Source: Verrucomicrobiaceae bacterium (GTDB taxonomy: Bacteria > Verrucomicrobiota > Verrucomicrobiia > Verrucomicrobiales > Akkermansiaceae). Taken from it: DNA of 36,286 nucleotides. Under the pieces are notes generated by a model. It had not been told where the DNA came from. It saw only the letters and a list, made by a program, of their open reading frames with translations, and searched no databases. The translations under genes and the position numbers were made by a program. Below are positions 649 through 30,188 of the stretch, piece by piece (within the stretch, counting starts at the first letter, position 1; the number at the start of each line of letters is the position of its first letter). The stretch spans positions 1-36,286 of the forward strand of contig JAIYDT010000427.1 of the NCBI GenBank assembly GCA_027487355.1. The letters are read 5' to 3'.

Positions 649-2415
<1,767 letters not shown>

Positions 2416-2515: not shown

Positions 2516-2530
2516 GAGAGGCGGAGGGCC

Positions 2531-4426: not shown

Positions 4427-4428
4427 GG

Positions 4429-5196: not shown

Positions 5197-5236
5197 TGGC
5201 TGCGATTCCCAAGCGCATGACGATCAGGATGGGCTT

Positions 5237-5253: not shown

Positions 5254-5260
5254 GCCACGA

Positions 5261-6436: not shown

Positions 6437-6451
6437 GGGAAGGGAGGGGTC

Positions 6452-6646: not shown

Positions 6647-6665
6647 GGTGGATGGGAGTGGAGGG

Positions 6666-8537: not shown

Positions 8538-8603
8538 GTCCACGAGGCTGCGACCTGGGTGAAGGGACGTCAAGAAGGCCGTGCGACCGACGCGGGGCAA
8601 CGA

Positions 8604-9404
8604 TCACTCCACCTCGTACTCAGCGTGGACGATGGTGATGATGTCCTTTTCCTTCGAGGAGGTGTCGTTGTTGCCTTCATTCGAGGTCTCGGTGGAATTG
8701 GCGGCGTTGATGTTGATGATGCCCATGTCGGCATAGACCAGCTTGCCGACCTTGGTGTTTCCGGCCGAGTTCAGGATGTTCTCCGCCCGAGACCGGGCGT
8801 CCTTCGCAGCTTCGGCGAGCATCTCCAGTTTCAGCTCACCGAGCCGGGTGTAGTAGTAGTTCGGGCTCTGCGAGGCCACATCCACGCCCTGTTCGAGCAA
8901 GGTCGTGATCTCACGGGAAACCTTTTCCACGAGGGGCACGCTGTTGGAGCTGACCGTCACCACCTGGGTGGCCTTGAAGCCCTTCGACTCCTTGCGTTCT
9001 GAGCGCAGGGGCACGTTCGTTCCTGGAAGAACCTTGTCCTCCTTGATGACCTCGAACTCCTCGGTGATGGTCGCGGAGCTGGTCTGGATCTCGTCCTCCT
9101 TGACGCCCTGCTTTTTCAAGAATTCGACGACCTTCTCGGTGCCGCCCTTGAGGCTGAGGTAGGCGGCGGTCCGCTCGGGGGCGCTGGCCTCGACTGAGGC
9201 GGACCAGTGGATCAGGTCCGAGACGATCCGCTTGCGGGCGGAGCCGGTGATGCGGATGTTGTTTTTCTCAGGTTTCTTGCGGACGTCCTTCCAACTGCTG
9301 GCGGCGATGAAAGTGGAACCGGCCAGCCCGAGGGCGATGGCCACCGCACTGAGGAAGGGAAGCGAGACTTTGCGAATCGAGCGGACAGGTTTTTCCGAGT
9401 TCAT
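8604..9404 (-). CDS. SIMPL-domain (DUF541) periplasmic protein
   Basis: The 266-residue protein has a basic N-terminus and one hydrophobic segment at about residues 16-36, then a SIMPL/DUF541 domain: 'NIRITGSARKRIVSDLIHWSASVEA' at ~48-72, 'GVKEDEIQTSSATITEEFE' and 'AAKDARSRAENIL' near residue 200. Members are found in the periplasm or outer membrane; their biochemical role is poorly defined, with links to oxidative-stress tolerance (E. coli YggE). Residues ~235-255 are a low-complexity N/S/E-rich insert ahead of the last strand. It lies 66 bases upstream of the symporter gene on the same strand and may share its transcript. Confidence 0.82.
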   Translation of the reverse strand: MNSEKPVRSIRKVSLPFLSAVAIALGLAGSTFIAASSWKDVRKKPEKNNIRITGSARKRIVSDLIHWSASVEASAPERTAAYLSLKGGTEKVVEFLKKQGVKEDEIQTSSATITEEFEVIKEDKVLPGTNVPLRSERKESKGFKATQVVTVSSNSVPLVEKVSREITTLLEQGVDVASQSPNYYYTRLGELKLEMLAEAAKDARSRAENILNSAGNTKVGKLVYADMGIININAANSTETSNEGNNDTSSKEKDIITIVHAEYEVE

Positions 9405-9477
9405 GATCCATTAACTCTCGTCATCTCTCCGGTAAATGAAAAGCATCAAGTCTGTGGAACTGTCGTTCGTGACCGAC

Positions 9478-9957
9478 CTACTCCCGCCAGCTGACTTTTT
9501 CCAGCCGCCAGCCATCCTCGGCCTTTCTCCAGGTGAACGAGGCATCGCCAGGACTGTCGATCACCTGGGTGCCGGAAAGCAAGACCCGCGCCTCGATCCG
9601 GGCACGGACGTTGGCGAGATCGCGATCGACGAAGATGGCGTCGATCCGCTCGATCTTGAAGCTCGTTTCCTTGGCGTTGTTGCAGAGCCAGGTGAAGGTG
9701 GAGCCGATTTCGCTGCGGGCGAGGGTGCCATTGGCATCGGCGATGGAGGGGATGTCGAGTTCGACGCTGGGCTGGAGCAGGCCATCGAGTTTGAACGAGC
9801 CGAGGCTGCGGCCGGCGACGCGTGAGTCCGCTTCCAGGGTGAGGACCTGGCAGAGCTCGCGGGTGCGTCGGGTGACGACCTGGGTGGGCGAGAACCACCA
9901 CATGACGAAACCGGCGAGGAGAATCAGGACGGCAACGATGAGGGTCAGTCGTTTCAT
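9478..9957 (-). CDS. Membrane-anchored hypothetical protein downstream of SulP
   Basis: The 159-residue product has one N-terminal transmembrane or signal-anchor helix (about residues 5-23, ending 'MWWFSP') and an extracytoplasmic domain. The C-terminal half ('RARIEARVLLSGTQVIDSPGDASFTWRKAEDGWRLEKVSW') has the alternating pattern of an NTF2-like or similar curved-sheet fold; this is a guess from pattern only. The start codon overlaps the SulP stop in a 4-base ATGA arrangement, so the two are translationally coupled. Function unknown. Confidence 0.7.
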   Translation of the reverse strand: MKRLTLIVAVLILLAGFVMWWFSPTQVVTRRTRELCQVLTLEADSRVAGRSLGSFKLDGLLQPSVELDIPSIADANGTLARSEIGSTFTWLCNNAKETSFKIERIDAIFVDRDLANVRARIEARVLLSGTQVIDSPGDASFTWRKAEDGWRLEKVSWRE

Positions 9958-11825
9958 GATTTCGTAGGATCGTAGTAGATGCGGATGTCGGCCTTGTCGG
10001 TGCCGAGGAACTGCTGGGCGCGCTTGAGGGCATCGCGCGTGGACAGGTTCGGGTTGCTCGGCTTGTGGATGAAGATATTGCTTTCCCCGGCCTCACGGTT
10101 GCAGCCCTCCTGGAGGGTGACGAGCACGCCGGACTGTTTCAGCACCCGGTAAACCTCGCGGGTGGCTCCGGAGATGAGGATTTGGCGGTCGTGGGCGCGG
10201 GTGAAGTGGATCAGGTCCTCCAGAGCCATCACGCTGGTGGCATCGAGGTGGCGGGCGTTCTTCAAGCGCAGGATGATGACCTTGAGATCGGGATCGGAAA
10301 CGGTGCGCTGGATCTGAGTGCGGAAGAGTTCCGAGGCCCCGAAAAAGAGGTCGCCCTCGACGTGGACGATGGAGATCGAGGGAATGGGACGGGGACGTTT
10401 TTCGCCGCGCTCGCGAAGCTCGCCGGCGTCGTCGAATTCATACTCGATGAGGAAGGGCTTGCTGGCCTTGCGCAGGAAGAGGGTGATGGAAATGGCGACG
10501 CCGATGAAGATGGCGACGTGGAGGGGGGTGAGGAGAGTGGCGAGGAAGGTGATGATCAGGACTGCGGCGTCGTCCGAAGTCGAACGCAGGCAGATGCGGA
10601 GATGGCGGAGGTTGAAAAGGGCGAGGGCCAGGGCGATGACCAGGGCGGAGAGGGCGGCCTTCGGGACGAAGTCGATGAGCGGCACGCCGATGCGGGGCGA
10701 GAGTGCGATCAGCACGGCGGCGACGAGGATGTAGATCCCGGCGAAGGTGGAGGCGAAGCGCGACTGGGCCCCGGAGGCGAAGTTCAGGGCCGAGCGGGTG
10801 AGGGACCCCGAGGCGGGCATGCCGCCGGCGAAGGCGCTGGCGAGATTGGCCATGCCGACGGAGAGCATGTCCTGATTGAGGTCGGGATGGTCGCCGCTGC
10901 GGGAGGCGATGGTTTTCGCCATCAGGGTGTTTTCGAGGGCCGACAGAAACGCGATCGCGAAGGCCACGCCGATGAGCATCGAGATGTCGTCGAAGATGCT
11001 GGGGCCGCCAAACTTCGGCAGGGTGGGGACGAGGTCTTGGAGCGTGAAGGTGGTGAAATGCGGAACCTTTGACCAGACGGATGGACCGAAGTGGATGAGC
11101 GAGCCGAACAGGGCGGAGGAAAGGGTCAGCGAGATGGCGAAACCCGGCCAGCGGGGACGCAGTTTCCGCAGCGTGTAGTACGCGGCGAGGCTGGTCGCGG
11201 CGATCACGAGTGAGGGCCACTCGATCAAAGGCAGGGATCTCACGATCGAGATCACCAGTGTGACGAAGGTCCGTGAGCTGTCGGCCGACATCATTTCGGC
11301 GATGCCGAGCGAGTCCTTGAGCTGGTTGGCGATGATCAGCACGGCCGCTCCGGAGGAATAGCCGATCAGGACGCTGCGGGAGATGTATTGAAGAAGGTCG
11401 GCCACTTTCAGCAGGGATCCGGCGATGAGGATCAAGGCGGACATCAGCACGAGCAGGGGGACCAGCTCGGACTCCCGGGCAAGCAGCAGGGGATTTCCAG
11501 CGAAGAGGCTGAAAAGCATGAAGGCCGTGGCATTGGTGGGGCCAAGCGAGGTGTGGCGCGAGCCCGCGAACAGCGGAGCCACGAGTGGAGCGACGATCGC
11601 GCAGAGGATGCCGAAGACGATGGGTAGCTGGGCGATCGAAGCGAAGGCCATCGCCTGCGGAATGGCGAGCAGGGTGACATTGAGCGCTGCGCGGGCATCG
11701 AACCTCGCCTTTTCAAGATCGTAGCGCCTCAGGCTGCCGATGAACGGAAAGGGCTTCACCTGGCCCGATGTGAGGAACCCCGCGACATCGCGGGCGGCCC
11801 TCGTCAGCGTGCGGCTCAGACTCAT
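9954..11825 (-). CDS. SulP-family anion transporter with STAS domain
   Basis: SulP/SLC26 proteins move inorganic anions such as sulfate or bicarbonate across the inner membrane. The 623-residue protein has the hydrophobic core with 'NVTLLAIPQAMAFASIAQLP' (SulP signature region) at about residues 50-70, 'SLGPTNATA' and 'GGMPASGSLTRSALNF'. The C-terminal STAS domain follows at about residues 465-570 ('SISIVHVEGDLFFGAS...HLDATSVMALEDL'). About 50 residues follow the STAS domain. The ATG at 11823-11825 is 10 bases after the LptF/G-type stop and gives a standard N-terminus; the longer frame overlaps that gene. Substrate cannot be read from sequence. Confidence 0.9.
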   Translation of the reverse strand: MSLSRTLTRAARDVAGFLTSGQVKPFPFIGSLRRYDLEKARFDARAALNVTLLAIPQAMAFASIAQLPIVFGILCAIVAPLVAPLFAGSRHTSLGPTNATAFMLFSLFAGNPLLLARESELVPLLVLMSALILIAGSLLKVADLLQYISRSVLIGYSSGAAVLIIANQLKDSLGIAEMMSADSSRTFVTLVISIVRSLPLIEWPSLVIAATSLAAYYTLRKLRPRWPGFAISLTLSSALFGSLIHFGPSVWSKVPHFTTFTLQDLVPTLPKFGGPSIFDDISMLIGVAFAIAFLSALENTLMAKTIASRSGDHPDLNQDMLSVGMANLASAFAGGMPASGSLTRSALNFASGAQSRFASTFAGIYILVAAVLIALSPRIGVPLIDFVPKAALSALVIALALALFNLRHLRICLRSTSDDAAVLIITFLATLLTPLHVAIFIGVAISITLFLRKASKPFLIEYEFDDAGELRERGEKRPRPIPSISIVHVEGDLFFGASELFRTQIQRTVSDPDLKVIILRLKNARHLDATSVMALEDLIHFTRAHDRQILISGATREVYRVLKQSGVLVTLQEGCNREAGESNIFIHKPSNPNLSTRDALKRAQQFLGTDKADIRIYYDPTKS

Positions 11826-11835
11826 GAGGCGAGGG

Positions 11836-12933
11836 TTATTTGAAGCGGGAGCGGCGGAACAGCCAGAGTCCGAGCAGGACCAGAACGATGTTCGGGGTCC
11901 AGATGGCGGCGGTGACACTGGCGTCGGTCTGGAACTGATCGGCCAGCATCGAGCCGAGGAAATAACCTGCCGCGATGAGGATGCTCAGGACCAGGCCGCC
12001 GGAAGTGTCGCGCCGGCGGCTCTTGATGCCGAGAGGCACGCCGACGAAGGCGAAGGCGAGGCAGGCCATCGAGTAGGCGTAGCGTCGCGTGATTTCCGAG
12101 CGCACGGAGACGCGGGCCTTTTCGCTGAGCCGGGGATCCTCGTTGGCGAACTTGAGGATCTCATCGTTGGTCATCGCCGCCGGTTTTGGCTTCTTCGGGC
12201 GGGAATCTGAAAAGCTGAGGAACCAATACTGCGCCTGGCCTGCGATGGCCCGGTCAAAGGTGCCGTCCTCCTTCGGAGACTCGATGAAGGTGTTGTCGAG
12301 GGTCAGTTTGAACTGCTGCTCCACCTGGTCGACCATCAGCTCGACGCGCCCGGCGTGGACGTAGGCCGGTGGTGGGGCGTCGGGGTCGTTGACCTTCCGA
12401 GTTTGGTACATGTGGAAGCCGACCAGGGCGTCGCCGTCCTTCCCCTCGATGAAGACCTTCTGGTTCTTGAAACGGGACTGCACCGCGCCGGGGTCGAGCA
12501 GGGCGCGGGGATCGCGCATCACCTCGCGGTAGAGGATGCTCTCCATCGAGGCCTTGGCCATTGGTGCGATGCTGATGTTCATCCAGACGCTGAGGCCGCA
12601 GAGCAAAAGGGCGACGACGAAGACCGGGGCGGCGATGCGTGGGAGGCTGATGCCAGCGACCCGGAAGCCGGTCAGTTCCTGGTCCGAGGAAAGCCGCCCA
12701 AAGACCATGAGCACGGCGGAGAGGAAGCCCCAGGGGATGGTGAACATCAGCGAGACCGGCAGGATGTTGATGGCAAACTGGCCGACGATGGCGAGTGGGA
12801 TGTGCTGCTCGACCAGAAGCGGCCGGATTTCCCGGAAAAGGCTGCCGAGGACCAGAACGACGGACAACACGAGGATGGCGAACAAGGTGCCGAGCAGCAC
12901 TTGTTTGCCGATGTATCGATCCGAAATCCGCAT
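11836..12933 (-). CDS. LptF/LptG-family lipopolysaccharide export permease
   Basis: LptF and LptG are the inner-membrane subunits that, with the LptB ATPase, extract lipopolysaccharide for export. The 365-residue length is typical. It starts 'MRISDRYIGKQVLLGTLFAILVLSVVLVLGS' (first helix ~12-32), has two further helices at about 56-80 and 95-118, then a periplasmic jellyroll region (~120-265), and three C-terminal helices from about residue 280. 'GRLSSDQELTGFRVAGIS' near residue 78 is a good family motif. Only one permease gene is here, so a partner should be elsewhere. It indicates a Gram-negative envelope. The gene is first of a minus-strand unit with SulP and the 159-residue protein. Confidence 0.88.
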   Translation of the reverse strand: MRISDRYIGKQVLLGTLFAILVLSVVLVLGSLFREIRPLLVEQHIPLAIVGQFAINILPVSLMFTIPWGFLSAVLMVFGRLSSDQELTGFRVAGISLPRIAAPVFVVALLLCGLSVWMNISIAPMAKASMESILYREVMRDPRALLDPGAVQSRFKNQKVFIEGKDGDALVGFHMYQTRKVNDPDAPPPAYVHAGRVELMVDQVEQQFKLTLDNTFIESPKEDGTFDRAIAGQAQYWFLSFSDSRPKKPKPAAMTNDEILKFANEDPRLSEKARVSVRSEITRRYAYSMACLAFAFVGVPLGIKSRRRDTSGGLVLSILIAAGYFLGSMLADQFQTDASVTAAIWTPNIVLVLLGLWLFRRSRFK

Positions 12934-13795: not shown

Positions 13796-13828
13796 ATCCG
13801 CAGGAAAAGGTCAGCTTTTTCCCCGGAT
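13796..13828. terminator. Hairpin between convergent DUF882 gene and lacI
   Basis: An interrupted stem is visible: ATCCG (13796-13800) pairs with CGGAT (13824-13828), and GGAAAAG (13803-13809) pairs with CTTTTTCC (13815-13822) with one bulge. The A- and T-runs give U-rich stretches to transcripts in either direction. It overlaps the lacI stop codon and lies in the 38-base convergent spacer, so a bidirectional terminator is plausible. Confidence 0.45.
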
Positions 13829-14845
13829 CGTGGCCCCGGGCACCCAGTCGCTCTCGATCATCATCGACTTCGCGAACGAGGGGACGCCGAATTCAGAGCG
13901 GTGCAGGGCTCCGACCAGCATGTCCAGCGCGGCCACTCCGACGTGTTCGTTGTTCTGATTCATCCCGGCCCATTCCGGCAGGTCCGCCGTGCGGTCGAGG
14001 TGGATCAGCCCGACCTCGCCCGGCACGTCCACCTTCATCGCGGAAAGCCAGTCCTTGAGCTCGGCGTGGAGCGTGATGATGACGTCCGGCTGGTGTTCGC
14101 GGAACCAGTTGGCGAAGTCCTCGGGAGCCTCGCGGTTGAAATTCAGGCTCGGAATCCGTTCCGATTTCGCGAGTTGAAGCTGGCCCATGAAAAATCCGGC
14201 ACTGAAGCGACCGTTGAGATTCTCATCCACTTTCCGCTCGATCACCAGACCGGGCCGCCGGTAGCCCAGCGAAATGGCCTCGTTGAAGCTGTCGAGCGAG
14301 GTCGCATACTGGTCGTTGCTCGCGCAGTGGAGCTTCGGTCGGGTGGTGCGCACGCCGACGACCACGCAGGCGAACTGCGTCCAGATCGGGCTGAAGGCGG
14401 TCGGCAGCAGACCATTTTCAAGCACCCCGGTGATGATTAACCCGCGGATGCCGCGTGAGTTCAGGATGGTGGCCAGCCGTTTCGCATCGATGTCCGGCTC
14501 CCACAGCCAGAACTCGTCCAGGCTGTAGCCGAGCTGGTTCCCTCGCAGCGTGCTGCCCGCCACCCAGTCGCGGAAGGTCTGGAACTCGCTCAGCTTGTCG
14601 CGCTCGCCAGACGCATTGATCAGTCCAAGGGTGGCTTGAAACTTCTGGGTGCGGCTGGCCCTGAGCTGCGCCATCAAGGCCGCCACGGTCGGATTCGCCC
14701 GATAACCGAGCTTTTCCGCGATCACCTGGATCCGCTGGCGGGTCTCCTCCAGCAGCCTCGGGTCGTTGCGCAGGGCAAGGGAAACGGTGGATTTGCCGAC
14801 TCCCGCCGCGTCGGCGATGTGCTGAAGGGTCGGTCGGGATTCCAT
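13811..14845 (-). CDS. LacI-family transcriptional regulator
   Basis: The 344-residue protein has the LacI layout. The helix-turn-helix 'PTLQHIADAAGVGKSTVSLALRNDPRL' lies at about residues 5-31, the hinge region with 'GYRANPTVAALMAQLR' at about 47-62, and a periplasmic-binding-protein-like sensor domain follows to the end. The 'GYRANP' hinge is characteristic. The start at 14843-14845 is set by the HTH; the longer frame runs into the control region. It is transcribed away from the giant amylase gene, with 237 bases between, so control of the two alpha-glucan genes by a sugar ligand is the natural inference. The ligand is not readable. Confidence 0.92.
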   Translation of the reverse strand: MESRPTLQHIADAAGVGKSTVSLALRNDPRLLEETRQRIQVIAEKLGYRANPTVAALMAQLRASRTQKFQATLGLINASGERDKLSEFQTFRDWVAGSTLRGNQLGYSLDEFWLWEPDIDAKRLATILNSRGIRGLIITGVLENGLLPTAFSPIWTQFACVVVGVRTTRPKLHCASNDQYATSLDSFNEAISLGYRRPGLVIERKVDENLNGRFSAGFFMGQLQLAKSERIPSLNFNREAPEDFANWFREHQPDVIITLHAELKDWLSAMKVDVPGEVGLIHLDRTADLPEWAGMNQNNEHVGVAALDMLVGALHRSEFGVPSFAKSMMIESDWVPGATIRGKS

Positions 14846-15082: not shown

Positions 15083-18000
15083 ATGATTTCCAGAGTTCGT
15101 CTTTTCGTGATTTCAGGTCTGCTTGGTCTGGCCCTCGCCGTCCCTGCGGCAGGTGAGGCGATGCTCCAGTATTTCAACACCAGCTGGGCCGAGATCACCC
15201 GCAAGATGCCCGAGCTGGCGGAGGCCGGCTATGATTCGCTGTGGTTGCCGCCACCGACAAAAGGCTCCGGTGGCCTGTCGGTCGGCTACGATTGCTGGGA
15301 CCGCTTCGACCTCGGATCGAAGGACCAGCGGGGCAGCGTGCGCACCCGCTATGGCACTGAGGCGGAGCTGCTGGAACTGGTCCGCGTGGCCCATCGCTTC
15401 GGGATCCGGATCTACTTCGACAATGTGATGAACCACAACGCGTTCGATATCCCCGGATACAACGCTTCGACCCCGATCGACCTCTACCCCGGTTTCCTGC
15501 CCGAGGATTTCCATCTGCGGAAAACCGAGGATGGCTTTTACCGGAAATGGGACAACACCCGCAGCTGGAGCGATGCCTGGCAGGTCCAGAACCTCGGGCT
15601 TTCCGACCTGATCGACATCGCCACCGAGCCGGGCACCACCAATTTCAACCACGGTCCGACCGAGGGCAGCACGATGCGGAAAATCGACTTCGTCCGCCAT
15701 CCAAACCAGCCCGAATACTACTGCTACCTCCCCACCGCGACCGGACAGAAGCACTCCGCCGGGCAGGGGACCTATGTCGGCTTCGGCCCGGCAAACGGGA
15801 TCACCACCGGCATCATCGCCGCGAATCCATCGTTCTATTCGGAGCGGGTCGAGGACCTGCTGCATCGCGCTGCCCGCTGGCAGATCGACCGCACCCGCGC
15901 GGATGGCCTGCGACTCGATGCCGTGAAGCACACCCCGGCCGACTTTTATGGCGCGACCTATGGGGCGGACAAGGATTCCTCCTCCTATGGCTACACGGGA
16001 CAGGTCCAGGTCCAGTTCAACCTCAGCCGCGGCTTCTCCGATTGGAGCAACCATCGCGACAGCCTCTTCAACACCGAGCAGGGCCGGGACGATGCCATGC
16101 TCTTCGGCGAGCATCTCGGCCAGCCACCGGCCTACGGGCCCTACATCGATGCCGGCATGCGGCTCATCGACAACGATCTTCGCTCCAATTTCAACAACCT
16201 CCTCGGCAACCCTTCCTCAGGACTCACCGGCTACGACGCCCCGGGTTTCGGCGGTTTTCCGGCCTCGGTCTCGGTGCCCCACGCGCAGAGCCATGACAAC
16301 GACTTCGCCGGACGCCGTGAACTCCAGCACGCCTTTTATTTCACCCGCGCCGGCCTCCCGCTCATCTACACCGATGGCAACTATCACGCCGAAACCTTGG
16401 GCGAGAGCGGTGGGGCCTTTCCGCGTCACGCCAACACCGCCTTCCTCGGCCAGTGGGGGGATGCGAGGATTCCCAACCTGCTCCGCGTCCACCAGGACTT
16501 CGCCCGCGGCTGGCAGCGTGGACGCTGGAGCGGCTCCGACCTGGTTTCCTACGAGCGCATCGACGACCGCAGCTTTTCCGAAAGCAACCAGTCGCTCAAG
16601 GAACGGAAGGGCGTGACCATGCTGATCGCGGTCAACGACAATTACTCCAGCGGCGTCTCGATCCAGGGCGGAACTTCCTTCCCCTCGCAGGCCGGCGGAG
16701 GATCGGAGAACAATCCGAACACCAACGACGAGTATCTCTTCCAGTACGCACGCGGCTACGGCAGCCAGACCGGATTCTACACCTATGCGTCTTCTCTTTC
16801 CGGCGTGACGGTGGACAAGGGCAGCTACTTCGTTTTCGCCCCCCGCACCCCGGAGGAATCCGATCTCTGGAAATCCGCAGGCGGCGAGCCGATCACCCTG
16901 CTCCAGAACGGCCAGCAGGTTCCTACGGTGAACGTCGTACGTCGCGACGGTCCCGATGGTGATCCCGCCTTCAATCCGAACGGCGTTGCGGATCCCAACA
17001 ACAGCGACTTCGCCTACACGGTCGCGGTTCCGCGCGTCACCTCCGCCACCAGCCTGAAGTTTGTCGCCCGCGTCGATGGCTCCGCCGAAAATGTCCTGCT
17101 GCGCCTCGATGGCGGCATCGACCTCAACGGCACCCGGCCTCTAGGAAATGTCGATCCGCTTTTCCGCGACAATCCGCCAGCCGTTTCCAACGACAGCTTC
17201 CTCGGCTATGAGCAGCCGAACTTTGTCCGCCGCCAGCAGGTCGAGAAATTCGCCGCACGCGACACCAGCCGGAACCAGTTTGGCTCGACCGGTGCCGAGA
17301 CCTACACCAAGACGATTGGCAGCGGCAGCTTCACCGTGGTCAACGGCCCGACCGGCTCCAACAACTTCTCGAACGACGGCGGCAACCAGGCTTCATTCCT
17401 CTATCATGATCCGGCGCAGGCGGTCGGCGGCACGCCTGGGGGCGGCTGGCCGGGGGGGAATGTTCCGCAGCAGTTTGTCGAGAACGCCTCCACGATCTCG
17501 ATCTGGGCGAAACCAAACGGCGTCGGCCTCGGTTTCAAGATGTTCTGCTATTACACCACTGATGGCACCAACCCCGAAGGCGCGGGCGGCACCGGCACCG
17601 GCACGACGAAGGTTTCGGAAATGGCCTTCAGCCACAACCAGGACAGCAACGACTGGTGGATGACCTCGAACATCCCCAAGCCCGCCTCGGGAAGCGTTTT
17701 CAAATACAAGGTCGGCATCCTCAAGGAAGGCTCCTCCAGTGTTTATCCCTCGGGTCCCGATTCGGTGTTCCGGAAAAAGCGGATGATGACCGTGTTCGAA
17801 ACACCAACGATCAATCCTTCGACTCTTAGCTACTCGGCGCACAATGATTACAACTCCACGACCACCGGCCTTCAGGAAGGTTTCCATATCATCCGTGGTC
17901 GCGCCTTCCTCAAGCGGGATGGAAAATCACCTCTTTATAACACGTTCTCCCGCACCTTCTACTACGACGCGGCCACTCCCGGCGGGCAGATCGTCTTCCC

Positions 18001-21000
18001 CGGCAGTGATGGCGAGCAGATCGGCGGCAGCGAATATGGTGCGGTCGTGAGAGCCGACAATTCGGTGCAGGAAGTCTGGTATCGCGTGACCGACGGCGAA
18101 GGCAGCAACGACGACTCCGCCACCGGCACCAGCAACGGCAACGGAGCCTGGGTCAAGGCCACCGAGATCACACCCACTGTCGCCATCACGCCCACCAATC
18201 CCGCGCATGGCCGCGAGTGGCGCTTCAACTATGTCAACATCCCCGCCACCGGCAGCGCCACCCTCGAGGTGAGGCTCAAGGAGCTGAGCTCTTCGGATGA
18301 CATGAATCTAACCGATGTGGCCGGGCATTTCACCACGCTCACGCGGACCATCCAGACCCGTGGCCCGGACCTGCGGCTCTTCGTCGCCTACCCGCAGGCG
18401 GAAGGTGATGTCATCGATGACTCCTATGTGCTCAAGGTTTACTTCTCGAAGAGCCTCGCCGATGGCACCACCGAAGCGACCCTCAAGCAGCGCTTCACCG
18501 TGCGATACGGGGCCAACGAAGGCTGGTCCGCCGGCATCCAGGTGCTCGATCGTGCGGCCTTCTCGATCAACTACAACGAGACCTCCGACTACCACGCGCT
18601 GGCGTTCCGGGTTCCGAATCTTTTCAACGGCTCGGATGATTTCCTCCACCGCATCGAGGTGACTTACGATCGCGCTGACCCGCTTTCCGATCTCGTGGCC
18701 ACCCGCCGGGTTCGGGCCGCGCCGAGCACGCTTCCCCGGGTCACCATTCTCCAGCCCCAGGAGTTCGACAGCAACGGCAAGCTGGTCGAGATCATCCTCC
18801 CCGATGGCCCCGGTGCCGACACGCTGCCCTACACGGTGCGGGTGGAAACCAGCGCCAATGCCACCTCGGTTGCCCTCGGATTCGAACTCGGCAGCGGCAC
18901 GCTCACGCCGGTCGATGCCGACCCTGTCGCCATCGGCATCCAGCCGACCTATCAGGGCTCCAGCGCCTTCTGGGATTTCATTTGGACCATCAATGCTCCC
19001 GGCACCTTCCGCTTGGTTGCATCCGCCGCAGGTCCGGGTGGAAATGCCGCCGACAAGCGCAACGCCACCGTGATCCGTCGCCAGCGGGTGGCGGGAAATC
19101 CAAGCGATCTCGATGACGATGACGATGGCCTTTCCGACTTCGATGAAGGCACCATCACGCCCCTGCCGAATGGATTTCCGACCGATGACGTCCGCTACAA
19201 GGCGAATTCCGAGCAATGGACCAATGGCGACATCCATGTCCACTTCGCCTACGGAAAGTCCGATCCGCTGCTTCCGGACAGCGATGGCGACGGGCTCCCG
19301 GACGGCCTCGAGGTCGGCTGGCGCACGCCGTTTTCGGCCACCAATACGGCCACCGACACCAATGGCGACTCGTTCCCGAATTTCATCGGCGACCTCGATC
19401 CGCCCTTCTTCAACACCCTCGACAACCTCGGCTCGGTGCCGGGTGTGAACAGCGCTTCCGAAGGTGGTGACCGCACGAAGCGTCTGCGTGGCTCCACCAC
19501 CGATCCGGGAAATCCCGACAGCGATGGCGATGGCATTCTCGACGGCGTGGAGGACTCGAACCGCAATGGCTGGGTCGATGGTGACGGAGCCTCGCTCGGC
19601 ACGACGACCGCCGCCACCACCGGGCGCAACTGGCCGAACGGCGAGATCGATGTCGGCGAGGTCTGGTTGGAAACCCATCCCGGCAACCCCGACACCGATG
19701 GCGATGGACTTTCCGATGGATCCGGCGAGGACAAGGATCTCAATGGCGTCATCACCGGTGACTCGAATGCGGACCGCGTCTGGCAATCGGGCGAAGTCTG
19801 GACGGAAACGAATCCCTTGAAAGGCGACACCGATGGCGATGGCCTGCCTGACGGATGGGAAACCGGTTTCGGCCTCAATGCCCTCGACAATGGTACCGTG
19901 GCCTTCGATGGCAGCACGTCCAATCCCAACAACGGAGCCGCAGGCGATCCGGATCAGGACGGCCTGACCAATCTCCAGGAACTTGTTGCCGGAACCGACC
20001 CACGGGTGGACAACACGGTGCCGCCCTTTGCCGGAGAAAAGATCAACATTGGTCCGGTCTCCGAGGCCGACTCGATCGTTCGAGGTGCCGTGACCAATCG
20101 TCAGGAGTTCACCGACTGGAAGATCAGTGATCTGGTCGTGCTCGATGAGTTCGAGGGCGATGGTTCAGGCAATCAGGGAGGCGACACTTATCTCGGCAAT
20201 GATGGCTTCGACAGCTCGCGCGACATCGTGGCGTTCTACGCCCGTGATGGCGGCGATCCGGTGGCGGGTGGCACGGATGAACTTTATTTCCGCGTGGATT
20301 TCCAGGACCTCCAGCCATTCGCCGAAGAGGGGAATCTCGATCTCTATGTGCTCATCGACACCGGCAATCCCACCATCGGCGAGTATGCCCTTCCAGATGA
20401 GGTGGACACCGGCACCCAGATGAAATGGGAGGCGGTGGTCGCGGTTTACAAGTCCAACGACGGTGCGGTCTTCGTCGACACCAACCCCGCGAACAACACC
20501 ACCGGCATCAATCAGGATCTGACTTCAAAGGGCGTCCAGCGTCGCGCGGCCGGCTCGCTCAATGGGTTCAAGAAGGCCTACTTCGACAGCAAGCAGGATG
20601 CGGTCGAGTTCTCGATCAGCCGCCAGGCGCTCCGCGATGCGGGATGGCTCGGAGATCCCGCTTCACTTTCGTTCCAGGTCTTCACCACGCGTGATGGCAC
20701 GAAGAACAGCCCGCAGGGAGCCGGAGATCTCGGCGGTCGCAGCGACATCCGCGACACGATCTACGACGATTGGCTGGCCGAAGACTACTGGCGGGACCAA
20801 GGCTATATCTCGCAGAACAGCGAGCTGCGCACCTGGTTTTCCTACAACGGTCCGGATCGTGGCAAGCGCGCCAAGGTGATGTCGGTCATCCATGGCAACG
20901 AGCCGATCCTTCCCGGCTCACAAATCCAACTGCGGCTCAACAATGGCGCGGGTGCCGGATATTACCGGCCCTTCGATGTCCATGATGCCTATTCGTCCAA

Positions 21001-23365
21001 GCTCGGCCTGCATGTCACTCCCACCCTCGCCTCGTCGCTCCAGTGGGCCTCGGTTGATCCGGCCGCTTCAAAGCCCTGGCGCGATGGTCCGGCTTTCAAC
21101 CAGCGCATCGGACAACTCGCGTCCGACGGGGTCGTCGAACTCATATCCTCGACCTATGCCGACTCACCGCTGCCTTACTTCAGCCAGGCGGCGATCAATG
21201 ACAGCATCGGTCTCTCCAACACCCTGCTGCAGGGCATCTATGGGGTCGCTCCATCTTCCCGCGTCTTCTGGGTGCCCGAACGGGTGATCGACGAAGGCGT
21301 GCTGGCCAAGGTCTCCGCCGCCGGATTCAGCCATGTCTTCATCGACCAGTTCCGCCATCTATCAGGACAGTTTGGACGTTCGAGCGCGCTGCTCGACGAC
21401 GGCTACCGCATCAACCAGATCAACGGCGTGAAGGCGATGGTGATCAATGATCGGGCCTCTGAGTTCCGCTTCAGGAACACGGACTCCGGGCTCGACATCA
21501 ATCTCCGCCAGTTGCTTTCCCGAAAGGCCCGCAGCGGTGAGCAACATCAGATGCTCATCCTGTCGAGCGACCTCTCCGACTTCCGCACCAAGGCGAGTGC
21601 CGACGCCTACGATGCCAACATCGCCTGGCTTGCCAGCCGTCCATGGATCGAACTGGTCGGACCCGATCAGGTCGCTGCCGGTCAGGTGGATCTCTCGGTG
21701 CCGCCAAATGGAACTGCCGACACCTTCGCACCGGTCAATCGCGGCAGCTCGGTGGTCTTCACCCGCAAGCAGGCCCCGCTGTGGCTCGATCACGCCACGC
21801 AGGGAACCTACGATCACTGGTGGTTCGGCAGCGCGCAGGAGGAAAGCCTTCGCGACAAGGTGTTCAACATCCGCCCTGGCGTGCCGATCAATCGTGCAGG
21901 GGGAGCCGACAATTTCTACGGCGTCCAGCAGTTCGGTCCGGGTGGAGTGGGGATCACCCGCGATGCCTGGAACTCGGTGTCCTCCATCGGCAACACGCCG
22001 CTCGGCAGGCTCGCGCGCGGCACGTATCACAGCTCGCAGTTCCTCGCCGGTTGGCACGATGAGGACAATGGCGACCTGAGCACCTTCTCGACCGGTGACT
22101 TCATCAATGCGGACACCACCTTCGACACGCTTGCGGCATCGAGTCGGATCGCCCAGTCGCAGTCGCGCTTCGCCGCTGTTTACCAGGGAGTTCAGACATG
22201 GGCCACTTCGCCGCCTGCCACCGCCCAGGCCAATGCGCTGGATGTGGATCTCGATGGTGAAAGCGAGTTCGTCCTCTCTAACAGCCGAGTCTATGCGGTC
22301 TTCGAGGCCATTGGTGGTCGCTGCGTCGCCGCCTGGGCGCGGGATGTTTCGAATGGCCAGGTGCGCCAGGTCATTGGAAACCTGCTGTCCTTCAGCGGCA
22401 CCGAGACCGAGTTTGAAGGTTCCACCAATCACGGCGCGAACGGCAGCGTCGGAGCCTACCGCACCAGCGCCTTCAAGGACTGGTGGGCCGGCAGCACCGG
22501 CGGCGCTGACACCTTTGTGAACGCACTCTACACGGTCGCTCCCGCATCCTCCGGCACCGGTTGGCGGTTCACGAATCCGGCGGGAACGATTGTGAAAACC
22601 ATCCGCCTCGAAACCGGCGGCGATTCGCTCGTCGCCTCCTATCAACTCTCCGGCGCGGTTTCGAAACTCTTCGTCCGCTTCGGCCTGAGCCCGGACCTCG
22701 ATGACCTGCTCGTCTCCGGTCAGGCCCATCTGACCACGCCCGCTCTAACAGGCTCGACCGTTTCGCTCAGCAACCGCTCACCCCTCGCCACCACCACGGC
22801 CGCCGTGCAGGCGGTCTCGGGCGTGACCTGGCAATCGCTCGCCACCGACGACGAGGTCGCCGCCTTCGACACCCTCCGCCTGCGCAACCAGGCGCAGACC
22901 CAGCAGATTGAGATGGAAAGCCAGGCCTCTTCCTTTGTGATCGGGCTCTCGCTTTCCACCACCGTCCTCGATGGCGATCAGGACGGGCTGCCCGCCGATT
23001 GGGAAACAGCGAACGGACTCGATGACAACAACCCGAATGGCGCGAACGGACCGGAAGGCGATCCCGATGGCGATGGCGTCTCGAACCTCATCGAATGGCT
23101 GGTTGGCATGAACCCTCAACTCACGGATCGTTCCAGCTATCCGAAGCTCGGCATCGCCTCGATCAATGGCGGCGTCCGCCTGACTTTCGCCACGCTTCCA
23201 GGTCGCAGTTATCAGCTCCAGTCGTCCCTCAATCTCGGCACCTGGTCGCCCTTCGGGACTCCCACGATCACGCCTGCCAATGCCGCACCCGGCCTGCTCC
23301 AGATCGACGACACCTCAGGCCTGCCCAAGCGCTTCTACCGCATGGTTATCTCACCTGTTCCCTGA
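15083..23365 (+). CDS. Giant secreted multidomain alpha-glucan hydrolase with GH13 and GH57-like domains
   Basis: The 2760-residue protein starts with a signal peptide (residues ~1-25). A GH13 alpha-amylase barrel follows (~25-560): region I 'DNVMNHN' (Asp113), nucleophile Asp279 in 'GLRLDAVKH', acid/base Glu343 in 'FGEHL', and Asp405 in 'SHDND'. Beta-rich linker domains follow to ~1335. Residues ~1340-1645 hold at least five Ca-binding DxDxDG (thrombospondin type 3-like) repeats, then a DOMON-like region (~1650-1910). A second catalytic region (~1930-2190) matches GH57 in order: 'HGNEP' (His1937), 'ELISSTYADSPLP' (Glu2019), 'FWVPERV' (Glu2066, nucleophile position), 'FIDQ' (Asp2088) and 'SSDLSDF' (Asp2163). 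A 'DVDLDGESEFVLSNSRVYAVFE' type domain near 2388, more Ca repeats (~2630-2675) and a C-terminal 'YQLQSSLNLGTW...RFYRM' module close it. GH13 is clear; the GH57 assignment rests on motif order and spacing. It is 24 bases upstream of the next amylase gene. Confidence 0.88.
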   Translation: MISRVRLFVISGLLGLALAVPAAGEAMLQYFNTSWAEITRKMPELAEAGYDSLWLPPPTKGSGGLSVGYDCWDRFDLGSKDQRGSVRTRYGTEAELLELVRVAHRFGIRIYFDNVMNHNAFDIPGYNASTPIDLYPGFLPEDFHLRKTEDGFYRKWDNTRSWSDAWQVQNLGLSDLIDIATEPGTTNFNHGPTEGSTMRKIDFVRHPNQPEYYCYLPTATGQKHSAGQGTYVGFGPANGITTGIIAANPSFYSERVEDLLHRAARWQIDRTRADGLRLDAVKHTPADFYGATYGADKDSSSYGYTGQVQVQFNLSRGFSDWSNHRDSLFNTEQGRDDAMLFGEHLGQPPAYGPYIDAGMRLIDNDLRSNFNNLLGNPSSGLTGYDAPGFGGFPASVSVPHAQSHDNDFAGRRELQHAFYFTRAGLPLIYTDGNYHAETLGESGGAFPRHANTAFLGQWGDARIPNLLRVHQDFARGWQRGRWSGSDLVSYERIDDRSFSESNQSLKERKGVTMLIAVNDNYSSGVSIQGGTSFPSQAGGGSENNPNTNDEYLFQYARGYGSQTGFYTYASSLSGVTVDKGSYFVFAPRTPEESDLWKSAGGEPITLLQNGQQVPTVNVVRRDGPDGDPAFNPNGVADPNNSDFAYTVAVPRVTSATSLKFVARVDGSAENVLLRLDGGIDLNGTRPLGNVDPLFRDNPPAVSNDSFLGYEQPNFVRRQQVEKFAARDTSRNQFGSTGAETYTKTIGSGSFTVVNGPTGSNNFSNDGGNQASFLYHDPAQAVGGTPGGGWPGGNVPQQFVENASTISIWAKPNGVGLGFKMFCYYTTDGTNPEGAGGTGTGTTKVSEMAFSHNQDSNDWWMTSNIPKPASGSVFKYKVGILKEGSSSVYPSGPDSVFRKKRMMTVFETPTINPSTLSYSAHNDYNSTTTGLQEGFHIIRGRAFLKRDGKSPLYNTFSRTFYYDAATPGGQIVFPGSDGEQIGGSEYGAVVRADNSVQEVWYRVTDGEGSNDDSATGTSNGNGAWVKATEITPTVAITPTNPAHGREWRFNYVNIPATGSATLEVRLKELSSSDDMNLTDVAGHFTTLTRTIQTRGPDLRLFVAYPQAEGDVIDDSYVLKVYFSKSLADGTTEATLKQRFTVRYGANEGWSAGIQVLDRAAFSINYNETSDYHALAFRVPNLFNGSDDFLHRIEVTYDRADPLSDLVATRRVRAAPSTLPRVTILQPQEFDSNGKLVEIILPDGPGADTLPYTVRVETSANATSVALGFELGSGTLTPVDADPVAIGIQPTYQGSSAFWDFIWTINAPGTFRLVASAAGPGGNAADKRNATVIRRQRVAGNPSDLDDDDDGLSDFDEGTITPLPNGFPTDDVRYKANSEQWTNGDIHVHFAYGKSDPLLPDSDGDGLPDGLEVGWRTPFSATNTATDTNGDSFPNFIGDLDPPFFNTLDNLGSVPGVNSASEGGDRTKRLRGSTTDPGNPDSDGDGILDGVEDSNRNGWVDGDGASLGTTTAATTGRNWPNGEIDVGEVWLETHPGNPDTDGDGLSDGSGEDKDLNGVITGDSNADRVWQSGEVWTETNPLKGDTDGDGLPDGWETGFGLNALDNGTVAFDGSTSNPNNGAAGDPDQDGLTNLQELVAGTDPRVDNTVPPFAGEKINIGPVSEADSIVRGAVTNRQEFTDWKISDLVVLDEFEGDGSGNQGGDTYLGNDGFDSSRDIVAFYARDGGDPVAGGTDELYFRVDFQDLQPFAEEGNLDLYVLIDTGNPTIGEYALPDEVDTGTQMKWEAVVAVYKSNDGAVFVDTNPANNTTGINQDLTSKGVQRRAAGSLNGFKKAYFDSKQDAVEFSISRQALRDAGWLGDPASLSFQVFTTRDGTKNSPQGAGDLGGRSDIRDTIYDDWLAEDYWRDQGYISQNSELRTWFSYNGPDRGKRAKVMSVIHGNEPILPGSQIQLRLNNGAGAGYYRPFDVHDAYSSKLGLHVTPTLASSLQWASVDPAASKPWRDGPAFNQRIGQLASDGVVELISSTYADSPLPYFSQAAINDSIGLSNTLLQGIYGVAPSSRVFWVPERVIDEGVLAKVSAAGFSHVFIDQFRHLSGQFGRSSALLDDGYRINQINGVKAMVINDRASEFRFRNTDSGLDINLRQLLSRKARSGEQHQMLILSSDLSDFRTKASADAYDANIAWLASRPWIELVGPDQVAAGQVDLSVPPNGTADTFAPVNRGSSVVFTRKQAPLWLDHATQGTYDHWWFGSAQEESLRDKVFNIRPGVPINRAGGADNFYGVQQFGPGGVGITRDAWNSVSSIGNTPLGRLARGTYHSSQFLAGWHDEDNGDLSTFSTGDFINADTTFDTLAASSRIAQSQSRFAAVYQGVQTWATSPPATAQANALDVDLDGESEFVLSNSRVYAVFEAIGGRCVAAWARDVSNGQVRQVIGNLLSFSGTETEFEGSTNHGANGSVGAYRTSAFKDWWAGSTGGADTFVNALYTVAPASSGTGWRFTNPAGTIVKTIRLETGGDSLVASYQLSGAVSKLFVRFGLSPDLDDLLVSGQAHLTTPALTGSTVSLSNRSPLATTTAAVQAVSGVTWQSLATDDEVAAFDTLRLRNQAQTQQIEMESQASSFVIGLSLSTTVLDGDQDGLPADWETANGLDDNNPNGANGPEGDPDGDGVSNLIEWLVGMNPQLTDRSSYPKLGIASINGGVRLTFATLPGRSYQLQSSLNLGTWSPFGTPTITPANAAPGLLQIDDTSGLPKRFYRMVISPVP

Positions 23366-23389: not shown

Positions 23390-26300
23390 ATGAAACTGCT
23401 TATCCATCTGTTCGGCTGTCTTTTCCTGGGCTTGGGCTCCCTCCAGGCCTGGACCGCCAATGAGACCGACTTCCCCGGTGACGGCCAGGGCTGGGATCTC
23501 GGCACCACCAACTCCTACAAGTACACCGGACCCGATGGCAGCACCGAGTGGTTCCGCTACGAGTGGACAGCTCCTGCTTCCGACACTGACTACAACTTCA
23601 AGATGGTCAGCGGAAACAACTGGAACAACGACTACGGCGGCAACCTGATCTTCCCGAAGAACGAGCTGGCCCTGATGTATTTTCAGCCGATCGGGGACTC
23701 CCCATCGAAGCTCTCCGGCGGCGTGACCAGCGGAAAACGCTACATCTTCACCGCCAAGGATCCTGGCCTGACCAATACCTTCATCAGCGTGATGGAGCTC
23801 TCGGCCGCTCCCGTCGCCATCACCAACGCTACTCGCAACGCCTCCACCGGGCTGATCACGATCACCCTCAATGCCACGCCCTCGGCCGAGGAAAAGGTCT
23901 ATGTCCGCTACACGGATACCAACTGGACCTACTCGCAGGTCATCCAGGCTCAGGTCTCGGGAACCACCGCGACGGCAACGATTCCCGACATCAAGGACGG
24001 CCGGAACTATCAATGGTATGCGCTGACCAGCACTGCCACGGCCGACAAATTCCATAACAGCTTCGCCACCGATGCCCTCACGCTTTCCTGGAGGAAGGAT
24101 ATCTCTGGAAACTTCACCATCACCGGAGTCCCGAGGATTTCAAACCTGACGATCAACAGCGCCAGCGGCCCTTATCAGACCACCAAGTTCTTCATTGATG
24201 AGATCGCCGGGCAGTCGTTCCCGCTTGATGCCAGCGTCACCTTCAACGCCGGAACTCCTCCGACCGAGGTGGAACTCGTGACCAACCTGAACCGTCGCGA
24301 CAAGGCCGACCAGGACAACAACGCCGACGGAGTCCCAGACGGCATCCTCCCTCCCGCCCGCGATGTCTGCGGGCAGAATGATTCGAACTACTACCGCGCT
24401 TATCCAATGACCGCCTCCGGCTCGACCTGGAGTGCCTCGGTCGCGGTGACGAAGACGGGTGCCTATCGCGCCACGGTGCGCTACCGCTTCTCGCCAACCG
24501 GTCCCTGGTTCTACTATGGGGATCGTGATCACGCCGTCGTCGTCTCGCCGAAGAAGACCCTGGAAATGACCCTTTATGAGCTCAACCCGCTCACCATCGA
24601 GGCCACCGCTGCCTCTGAAGCAGGGCGCAGCACCTTTGTCGATCTCCTCGGAGCGGCCGATGGAGATACCGATGGCACCGACCCGCTGAACCTCGATTAC
24701 TTCAATCTCGTTCAGACCAACTGCCTCTGGTTCCAGCCGATCCATCCCACCGGTGGACTCGGGGTCGAGAATGATCCGGCCACCTCCTCGCCCTACTCGC
24801 CGGGCAGTCCCTACGCGACGAAGAACTTCTTCGCTGTGAACCCCTATCTCGGCAGTGCCAACACCGAGGCCTCGGCCTTGGCGGAATTCCAGAACTTCGT
24901 CCAGAAGGCCGACACCTACAATGGCAGCGTCGGCACGATCAACGTGATGCTCGACTTCGTGGCGAATCACACCGCGTGGGATGCCGTGTATGGGCAGGGT
25001 GGGGTTGACCTTGGCTACACCGGCTCGACCTCCACCGCGATCCCGGGGAACTGGTATTCGCGAACAGGCGATTACGGTCAGGCGGCCACCTATTTCACCA
25101 GTCTCACCGACAAGGACAAGGCGGTGGCACCGGACCGCAATGACTTTGGCAAGTGGAGCGACGTGGCCGAACTCTACTACGGCCGCTACTCCGCCCTCTG
25201 GCGTTATGGAAGTTATGCCTCCGGCTCAGAGCCCCACAAGAACGAGGATGATTTCGTGGATTTCAACAGCCTCAGCCCGGAGGTGATCAAGTTGTGGAAA
25301 TACCTCGGCCACTACCCGACCTACTGGCTCCAGCAGACCGGTCACTCACTTTCCAATTCGACCACCGGATCCGCAGCCTCGCGCCTCGCCGACGACAACA
25401 AGGGCATCGACGCCCTGCGTTGCGACTTCGGCCAGGGCTTGCCGAACCCGCTCTGGGAATATGTCATCAACAAGACCCGCGCCGCGAAATGGAACTTCGT
25501 CTTCATGGCGGAAACCCTCGATGGCGCTGAACCCGGCTATCGCAGCAACCGCGTGTTCGACATCCTCAACGAGAACATGGTGTTCAACTTCACCGCCAGC
25601 CGCCTCAACAAGGAGTCCGACTTCCAGAGCAACCTCGAATCCCGCCGCTCCACCTATCGCACCGGCGCGATCCTGCTCAACATCACCGGCCACGATGAGA
25701 TCCTGCCGGACAACGACGCATGGCTGAACGCCACCCGCTATGCCGCGATGTCCGCCGTTCCTGGTCTGCCGATGGTCTTCAACGGACAGGAACAGGGCAT
25801 CCAGAACTTCAACACCGGCTCCGGAACTTGGCATTACGACGGCTTCGAGACCGATCACGAACTCAACTTCGGAAAGCGCATCCCCCACTTCAAGAAGTGG
25901 AACCGCGCGCAGTTCTGGTATCCCGCCACCCTGCCACCCAACAACACCGGCATGGCCCAGTGGTATGGCCGGGTCAACTGGGCGCGCTTGAACAGCCCCG
26001 CGATCAAGAGCCTCAACCAGTATTATCTCGACCAGCGGATCAGCGGTGGAGCTCCAGCCGACAACCTCTTCGCCATCGCGAAATACGAGCAGGCCAATGC
26101 CTCTCCGGCCTTCAAGGACGTCGTGCTCTGCTTCGCCAACCTCTTCGCCCACAACGCCACCAACCCCGGAACCGGAGCCACCACCCATCTCAGCACCAGC
26201 AGCACCTTCGACCTCCGGGGTGGGGCAGGGGATCCCCTGTGGAACCTCCTCGGCCTGAAGAACACCGCCGCCCGCAGCTACAATGTCCGCAATCTCGCCA

Positions 26301-27079
26301 GCAGCAATGCCGCCGCGAATGTCTGGACCACACCACGCACCGGCTCCGACCTCTACACCAACGGACTCTTCGTGGGACTCGGCGGCGGCACGGTGAACCC
26401 GATCACCAACGACGGCGAATTGGCCCAGTTCCTGAAGGTGGTCGATGTCACGCCACCGCCATCCCCGACCCCTCTCGCGAACTACTATGAAATTGGTAGT
26501 TCCGGCACCTTCTCCTGGGTCGCGAATGCCGGAGCCGATGACAATGTCGCCTCGTGGCTCGTTGAGATCTTCGAGAACGGGGTCCTCTCCTCCAGCCAGA
26601 CGATTCCGGGCACCCAGACAAGCTTCTCCTTCTCCGGTTCTCCCGGAAACACCTATCGCGCCCGCATCACCGCCATCAGCGCGACCAGCGTTTCCTCGAC
26701 TACTCCTGGCAGCAGCGATTCTGGTCCGCCCAATCCGTCCTCCACCACCACCGCCGTAAAGCTCCTGCTGGCGGCGGGCGATGATGATGGCGACGGCCGC
26801 AGCAATCTCGACGAACAGAACGCCGGCACCAATCCGCTCGATGCCGCCTCGCTCTTCAAGATCCTCTCGATCCAGCGCAGCAGCCCCGCCGTCAGCATCG
26901 GATTCACCTCCGTGATCGGAAAGACCTATCAACTCGAGACCTCCACCTCGCTAGACTCAGGCAGTTGGACTCCAGTCGGCTCTTCATCGGTCGCAACCAC
27001 CACACAATCCTCCCTCACCGACCCCACCGGCGGCACCGATCCCAAGCGCTTCTACCGAGTCCGCGTCACCGGGCCTTGA
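23390..27079 (+). CDS. Secreted GH13 alpha-amylase-type enzyme with N-terminal beta domains
   Basis: The 1229-residue protein has a signal peptide (residues ~1-20, 'LLIHLFGCLFLGLGSLQA'). Beta-rich modules, possibly carbohydrate-binding, span ~20-390. A GH13 catalytic domain (~395-870) has 'LDFVANHTAWD' (Asp522), nucleophile Asp679 in 'ALRCDFGQG', acid/base Glu708 in 'FMAETLDG' and Asp769 in 'ITGHDEILPDND'. The 'LWFQPIHPTGG...GSPYATKNFFAVNP' stretch near residues 446-485 recalls GlgE-type GH13 enzymes, but secretion argues for a depolymerase. The C-terminus has a 'DDDGDGRSNLDEQNAGTNP' Ca-binding repeat and a 'YQLETSTSLDSGSWTPVG...RFYRVRV' module like that of the upstream giant enzyme, so both are probably exported or surface-attached by one route. 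The 24-base gap makes a two-gene operon under the divergent LacI likely. Confidence 0.9.
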   Translation: MKLLIHLFGCLFLGLGSLQAWTANETDFPGDGQGWDLGTTNSYKYTGPDGSTEWFRYEWTAPASDTDYNFKMVSGNNWNNDYGGNLIFPKNELALMYFQPIGDSPSKLSGGVTSGKRYIFTAKDPGLTNTFISVMELSAAPVAITNATRNASTGLITITLNATPSAEEKVYVRYTDTNWTYSQVIQAQVSGTTATATIPDIKDGRNYQWYALTSTATADKFHNSFATDALTLSWRKDISGNFTITGVPRISNLTINSASGPYQTTKFFIDEIAGQSFPLDASVTFNAGTPPTEVELVTNLNRRDKADQDNNADGVPDGILPPARDVCGQNDSNYYRAYPMTASGSTWSASVAVTKTGAYRATVRYRFSPTGPWFYYGDRDHAVVVSPKKTLEMTLYELNPLTIEATAASEAGRSTFVDLLGAADGDTDGTDPLNLDYFNLVQTNCLWFQPIHPTGGLGVENDPATSSPYSPGSPYATKNFFAVNPYLGSANTEASALAEFQNFVQKADTYNGSVGTINVMLDFVANHTAWDAVYGQGGVDLGYTGSTSTAIPGNWYSRTGDYGQAATYFTSLTDKDKAVAPDRNDFGKWSDVAELYYGRYSALWRYGSYASGSEPHKNEDDFVDFNSLSPEVIKLWKYLGHYPTYWLQQTGHSLSNSTTGSAASRLADDNKGIDALRCDFGQGLPNPLWEYVINKTRAAKWNFVFMAETLDGAEPGYRSNRVFDILNENMVFNFTASRLNKESDFQSNLESRRSTYRTGAILLNITGHDEILPDNDAWLNATRYAAMSAVPGLPMVFNGQEQGIQNFNTGSGTWHYDGFETDHELNFGKRIPHFKKWNRAQFWYPATLPPNNTGMAQWYGRVNWARLNSPAIKSLNQYYLDQRISGGAPADNLFAIAKYEQANASPAFKDVVLCFANLFAHNATNPGTGATTHLSTSSTFDLRGGAGDPLWNLLGLKNTAARSYNVRNLASSNAAANVWTTPRTGSDLYTNGLFVGLGGGTVNPITNDGELAQFLKVVDVTPPPSPTPLANYYEIGSSGTFSWVANAGADDNVASWLVEIFENGVLSSSQTIPGTQTSFSFSGSPGNTYRARITAISATSVSSTTPGSSDSGPPNPSSTTTAVKLLLAAGDDDGDGRSNLDEQNAGTNPLDAASLFKILSIQRSSPAVSIGFTSVIGKTYQLETSTSLDSGSWTPVGSSSVATTTQSSLTDPTGGTDPKRFYRVRVTGP

Positions 27080-29030: not shown

Positions 29031-30188
29031 TCACGGAGCCTTCTTCTCCTCACGCTTCTTCTCCCCTTCCTTCAGCACCGCGAAGAACGCGGGTTTGGGC
29101 AGCATGGCCCGATCGATCAGCAGGGCGTGATTGGTCCTGCCCCGGATTGGAAAGTGGTTCAGCCAGCTGAAGCCATCGTTCAAGCCCCACAACGTGACAC
29201 GGGTCACCGATTTCCGATGACGCAGATACACGTCGAACAGCTCGGCGTAGCGTTTTGCCAGTTTCTGCTGAACCTCATCGGGCAGCCCGGTCTTGTAGGG
29301 ATCGAGGGCCGGATCCGCCTGTTCGCGGCGGTTGATGTCGGCGTTGCCGAAACCTCCCCTTGCGGGAAGCACGTCCACATCGAGTTCGGTCACCATCACC
29401 TTCAGTCCAAGAGCGGAGAGATCCTGAATGGTTTTCTCAACTTCGGAGAGGGCAGGTCGATCCAGGCTGAAATGCGATTGGGTGCCCACCCCGGTGATCG
29501 GCACTCCGCGGGCGATCATCCCCTTCAGCAGGGTGACGCAGTTGCGGCGCTTGCGCGGGTCCTCGAGGCCGTAGTCGTTGTAGTAGAGCTCGGCATTCGG
29601 CGCCGCCTCCCTGGCAAAGCGGAAGGCGTGATCGAGGAAATCGTCGCCAATGATGCGCCGCCATGGCGAATCCCGCAGCAGCTCGGGGCCCCCGTCGGAG
29701 AGGGCCTCGTTGACCACGTCCCAGCCTTTCACGGAGTCCTTGTAGCGATCGGCCACCGTCCGGATGTGTTCGCGCATCCGCTCCAGCAACTGCTCGCGGG
29801 TCGCGGGCTTTCCGTCGTCTCCCTTGAACACCCAGTCCGGCGTCTGGCTGTGCCACACCAGTGTGTGACCGATCAGTTTCATGTCGTGGGCCTTCGCGAA
29901 GTTGGCAAAGACATCCGCCGATTTGAATTCGTAGCGACCCGGAGCGGGATGCAGGGCCTGCCACTTGAACTCGTTCTCCGGAGTGATGGCCGAGAACTGC
30001 TTTGCCGCCACTTCCTCCGCCTTGGGAACCCGTCCGTTGATCTGGTAGGAGCCCAGCGCCACTCCCACCAGGAAATCATCCGCGAACACGCTCCGCAGCG
30101 TCGCCGGCGGCTCGACGGCATGCGCCGCAGGCAGCGACCAGGCAAGGCACGCCATCACGACGAGGCGGGAAAGGGAAAGTGGGTTCAT
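29031..30188 (-). CDS. Secreted GH10 endo-1,4-beta-xylanase
   Basis: GH10 enzymes cut beta-1,4-xylan with retention of configuration. The 385-residue protein has a signal peptide (~1-24, cleavage near 'AAHA'). The GH10 barrel covers about 30-370: 'ITPENEFKWQALHP' (~68-81), 'GHTLVWHSQTPDW' (~107-119), acid/base Glu161 in 'WDVVNEALSD', 'YYNDYGLEDP' (~202-211), and nucleophile Glu268 in 'VMVTELDVDVLP'. 'VTLWGLNDGFSWL' near 334-346 completes the site. It is a single-domain enzyme with no visible binding module. It lies 38 bases after the esterase gene on the same strand, so the two likely act together on xylan. Confidence 0.94.
   Translation of the reverse strand: MNPLSLSRLVVMACLAWSLPAAHAVEPPATLRSVFADDFLVGVALGSYQINGRVPKAEEVAAKQFSAITPENEFKWQALHPAPGRYEFKSADVFANFAKAHDMKLIGHTLVWHSQTPDWVFKGDDGKPATREQLLERMREHIRTVADRYKDSVKGWDVVNEALSDGGPELLRDSPWRRIIGDDFLDHAFRFAREAAPNAELYYNDYGLEDPRKRRNCVTLLKGMIARGVPITGVGTQSHFSLDRPALSEVEKTIQDLSALGLKVMVTELDVDVLPARGGFGNADINRREQADPALDPYKTGLPDEVQQKLAKRYAELFDVYLRHRKSVTRVTLWGLNDGFSWLNHFPIRGRTNHALLIDRAMLPKPAFFAVLKEGEKKREEKKAP

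Follow-up and report, generated by a model that had tools for sequence, protein, structure and literature searches.

The cleavage of alpha-glucans has been solved independently by GH13 and GH57, which normally occur on separate proteins. GH57 enzymes are defined by a Glu nucleophile on strand beta4 and an Asp proton donor on strand beta7 (PMC6037648). The described enzyme closest in whole-domain fold to the GH57 domain reported here is the 4-alpha-glucanotransferase of Thermococcus litoralis (PDB 1k1x/1k1w), which shares its barrel, the helices that follow and the beta-sandwich, and which carries the nucleophile motif WLTERV where our protein has FWVPERV. That enzyme is stand-alone and only about 14% identical, whereas the family we describe is variable at the acid position. 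The barrel is also similar in the GH57 amylopullulanases of Aquifex aeolicus (9jlu, Z 26.5) and Staphylothermus marinus (7e1y, Z 25.6); the Aquifex entries carry mutations at E256 and D352, two residues 96 positions apart, compared with 97 for E2066 and D2163 of our protein, but these amylopullulanase chains have no GH13 domain. On the GH13 side, liquefying-type alpha-amylases (3bc9, Bacillus-type) are the best sequence matches and likewise have the catalytic triad, to which the protein described here adds 2,000 further residues, the GH57 domain among them. The open-licence papers we searched contained no description of a GH13-GH57 fusion; a 2018 survey notes one GH57 sequence of an Opitutaceae bacterium as unclassified, and this sequence is possibly a relative. 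If conserved, such a fusion would offer a natural experiment on cooperation, within one chain, between two folds that attack the same polymer.

The window analyzed, a stretch of 36,286 nucleotides from a Verrucomicrobiaceae bacterium, encodes a giant protein of 2760 amino acids (2760 codons in a single frame, 15083..23365, +) composed of a GH13 domain, a beta-rich middle, calcium-binding-type repeats and a GH57-like domain. Its first residues (MISRVRLFVISGLLGLALAVPAAGEA, 15083..15154, +), read from the translation, look like a Sec signal peptide, suggesting that the protein is exported. The initial annotation had placed a GH13 and a GH57-like active site in this one polypeptide, and every residue it named was found at its position in the translation; Pfam independently recovered both Alpha-amylase (residues 37-129, E 1.3e-9) and Glyco_hydro_57 (E 8.7e-8).

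The GH13 alpha-amylase domain (15155..16882, +) is liquefying-amylase-like. It matched the NCBIfam alpha-amylase model PRK09441 over residues 33-302 (1.6e-33, under the strict equivalog cut-off), and a profile built from 23 relatives retrieved PDB alpha-amylases with E-values as low as 5.2e-33, the best being 3bc9. The triad lies near the N-terminus, as first annotated, with D279 (codon 15917-15919) in GLRLDAVKH, E343 (16109-16111) in FGEHL and D405 (16295-16297) in SHDND, all on the + strand, and these residues are invariant in every relative that covers them (25-26 of 26). AlphaFold gave a low-confidence model of this region (pLDDT 48), unsuited to a fold search, and the GH13 (beta/alpha)8 fold is therefore predicted from sequence homology.

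Between the two catalytic-type domains lies a conserved middle region of beta-type domains (17000..19102, +) that matched no family significantly and gave only weak hits to Fn3_assoc/CHB_HEX_C and to amylase accessory domains. It is followed by Asp-rich, thrombospondin type-3-like repeats of the calcium-binding type (19112..20002, +) that join the halves; these were recognized from D/G repeats in the translation, a sub-threshold TSP3_bac match and partial matches to CglD and MtsD. Immediately before the GH57 barrel is a highly conserved domain (20045..20857, +; 58-81% identity to relatives) with no significant family match, either from the giant-protein sequence or in the PDB, which is possibly a beta-sandwich. 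The protein ends in a C-terminal Asp-rich repeat and tail domain (22838..23362, +), and its last ~100 residues are shared with the product of the next gene at 35-38% identity.

Pfam, profiles of the relatives, a structural model and fold searches all place a GH57 barrel at 20858..21922 (+). The PF03065 score of 32.2 bits exceeds the cut-off of 21.2, and since 25 of 28 relatives also score above it, the match is not due to chance. An hhalign comparison with 15 other GH57 proteins from the relatives' genomes gave an E-value of 5.5e-12 in the nucleophile region; it aligned that region and not the acid region of the canonical enzymes, so the acid position was set by an FDDWEA motif of a sister family and by the strand ends of the model. 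The profile A1 found no PDB relatives by sequence; these emerged only from the fold search. The AlphaFold model of residues 1905-2585 (pLDDT 83, pTM 0.87) is closest to the T. litoralis 4-alpha-glucanotransferase (Z 28.5, whole-chain rmsd 9.2, 484 aligned), followed by the Aquifex amylopullulanase (Z 26.5, rmsd 3.5 over 338) and then by branching enzymes. The alignment to 1k1x (model residues 23..681) extends past the barrel into the helices and beta-sandwich behind it (21923..22837, +), an arrangement as in the glucanotransferase.

Both the Pfam match and the modeled barrel, of the incomplete (beta/alpha)7 type of GH57, uphold the initial assignment of this half to GH57. In the model, the short strand VFW (model 157-158), taken as beta4, is followed by E2066 (codon 21278-21280; model residue 162), and model strand 254-259, taken as beta7, ends in D2163 (21569-21571); from sequence and model together, the two are predicted to occupy the nucleophile and acid positions of the published GH57 definition. 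Also in the barrel are H1937 (20891-20893) and D2166 (21578-21580, all +). Conserved sequence regions CSR-1 (H-x-N/H-Q), CSR-3 and CSR-4 were located, CSR-2 is present without a conserved Glu, and CSR-5 (ATQGTYDHWWFG) was placed by eye only. In place of the Glu of the canonical DxE motif, this protein has S2165.

Contig scans recovered 31 loci of this kind, under record names that include Verrucomicrobia(ceae), Akkermansiaceae, Haloferula, Kiritimatiellae, Lentisphaerae and PVC-group bacteria, together with one uncultured bacterium. The GH57 part was present in 38 of 388 genomes of the phylum, and full-length homologues are ~2,600-3,000 residues long and can be aligned over the whole protein. 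Both domain profiles were detected in five of six divergent long proteins (L125, L126, L128, L129 and L130), which implies that the fusion is old and inherited; the sixth, L127, lacks its start in the sequence stretch available. The GH13-GH57 fusion is conserved across Verrucomicrobiota, Kiritimatiellota and Lentisphaerae, its two halves being inherited together, and is not a local accident. Nine proteins of ~1100-1260 residues (L116-L124) form a sister family with a homologous GH57 domain (E about 1e-100), but with no match to the GH13 profile A2. At L125, two genes of the giant type stand in tandem (145-9828 and 10178-12499); both match the GH13 profile, and the second is incompletely covered by the sequence stretch available. 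The genome has one more, distant GH57 match (C83, L003); it was considered as a copy of the giant protein and rejected, its WHNHQP motif being that of another GH57 class. The same genomes also encode apparently exported GH57 proteins of a separate class, represented by L112 and L003, which show WHNHQP and FPTEMA motifs; other frames of 1100-1300 residues in this class are found at G017:C16, G015:C26 and G002:C185. A 26,627-residue open frame in L073 (G220:C61) was discarded as an artefact of N-masked sequence.

Residue conservation was scored in 51 non-redundant long proteins, which include some fragments but were all counted as fusion-family members, and in the nine sister proteins. The nucleophile E2066 is invariant (40/40 relatives; 60/60 with the sister family), R2067 and H2092 are nearly or fully invariant, and H1937 is His in 35 of 40 relatives (47/51 non-redundant fusion proteins; 56/60 including the sisters). 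The residues first proposed for the GH57 site divide: H1937 and E2066 are conserved, E2019 is Glu in only 14 of 40 relatives, and D2163 lies at the acid position here while varying across the family. Position 2163 is Asp in 13 of 40 relatives and in 11 of 51 non-redundant fusion proteins; the remaining 40 carry N (16), M, S, G, W, A, R, H, Q or L. In the sister family it differs, being the canonical Asp in 9/9, within FDDWEA[FY] or a close variant. Three residues further on, position 2166 is Asp or Glu in 48 of 51 fusion proteins and Ala in all nine sisters, and the canonical GH57s compared have a non-acidic residue there; L035, L040 and L130 have no acid at either position.

On a tree computed without the motif columns, the state of D2163 changed at least 4-5 times. 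An AU test rejected the grouping of D-bearing fusions with D-bearing sisters (p-AU 1.9e-70), so simple retention of the Asp is rejected, and the acid must either have disappeared early, to be regained in the line leading to this protein, or have been lost several times; the test fits either history. Nei-Gojobori dN/dS values are 0.02-0.19 for the GH57 barrel, in pairs with and without D2163 (one pair being saturated), and 0.04-0.16 for the GH13 domain. These low values indicate that both halves are under purifying selection and that GH57 domains without the acid are not decaying. The standard acid is missing in ~80% of the family, so a second activity of canonical type is not what the architecture conserves.

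The interpretation we favor as probable is that the giant protein is an exported alpha-glucan degrader, combining a GH13 endo-alpha-amylase with a GH57-fold domain that is likely a second enzyme here and is acid-less in most relatives. The two are linked by ~1,300 residues of non-catalytic domains. The GH13 half probably cuts alpha-1,4 links of starch or glycogen outside the cell, and the GH57 half of this protein, with E2066 and D2163, is likely a second retaining alpha-glucan hydrolase or transferase in the same chain. Judged by sequence, this protein has two complete catalytic pairs, and two active sites are plausible. Speaking against a second enzyme are the rarity of Asp at position 2163 (11 of 51 fusion proteins) and the Ser at 2165. 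In most relatives, which lack the acid, the GH57 half would serve as an alpha-glucan-binding domain or one of altered chemistry. The division of labor within the chain that the initial annotation suggested, with debranching or transglycosylation as examples, is hypothetical.

It is also conceivable, though we think it unlikely, that no member of the family has an active GH57 half, this half being a pseudoenzyme kept as a platform that binds alpha-glucan for the GH13 domain, with D2163 incidental in this lineage. The variable acid position in 40 of 51 fusion members is what such a history predicts, and GH57 "like" proteins, in which a catalytic residue has likewise been lost from the fold, are considered inactive (PMC6037648). 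The D352N variant of the Aquifex GH57 enzyme is present in the PDB with substrates or cyclodextrins, which would fit a site where turnover is blocked and binding spared. Pseudoenzymes usually lose the nucleophile too, however, and here E2066 is kept in every protein compared, with R2067 and H2092 almost equally constant; unlike the "like" proteins, this family loses the acid only, never the nucleophile, and is fused to an active-looking GH13 domain.

Less probable again is a GH57 half of altered chemistry, in which the acid disappeared and returned, or shifted to D/E2166, while the nucleophile stayed constant. If true, nature would have a widespread set of GH57 enzymes joined to GH13, some of them acid-less, some acid-shifted and some acid-bearing. 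The variation at the acid position also bears on what a retaining glycosidase can do with its nucleophile alone. Slightly more doubtful is the version in which the half is active family-wide and the acid has simply relocated, D/E2166 serving as proton donor one helical turn on. The near-universal acid at 2166 in the fusion proteins, set against Ala in the sisters and non-acidic residues in canonical GH57s, is as this scheme predicts, but L035, L040 and L130 would be left without a donor, and D2166 is retained also where D2163 is present. That the barrel is instead a polysaccharide deacetylase (CE4/NodB) or GH38-like is highly improbable, since although these families have the fold in common and appear among the fold matches, they score clearly below the best GH57 structures (Z 21-28.5 against at most 19 for CE4 deacetylases and 14.6 for GH38; Foldseek, VIA), and sequence matches were to GH57 only. 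The Pfam searches of the giant protein and relatives returned no CE4 profile, and neither the TFDD nor the HxxxH metal-binding motif of CE4 was seen at the strand ends, as judged by eye from the translation and the motif alignment.

The surroundings of the gene agree with the favored reading of an exported alpha-glucan degrader. Directly downstream is a second secreted GH13-like protein of 1229 aa (23390..27079, +; PF00128 4.6e-5, over the cut-off), a homologue of which neighbors the giant gene in about half of those relatives for which flanking sequence was available. Upstream and divergent is a LacI-type regulator (13811..14845, -; PF00356 2e-12), whose homologues adjoin the giant gene in a few relatives. 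This regulator and the neighboring GH13 gene would fit a starch/maltodextrin locus. Some 11 kb away are genes for a PTS enzyme I-like protein and an HPr kinase (649-2415 and 3026-3988, -), which suggest a regulatory PTS. The window also encodes a GH10 family protein (29031-30188, -; 1.8e-98).
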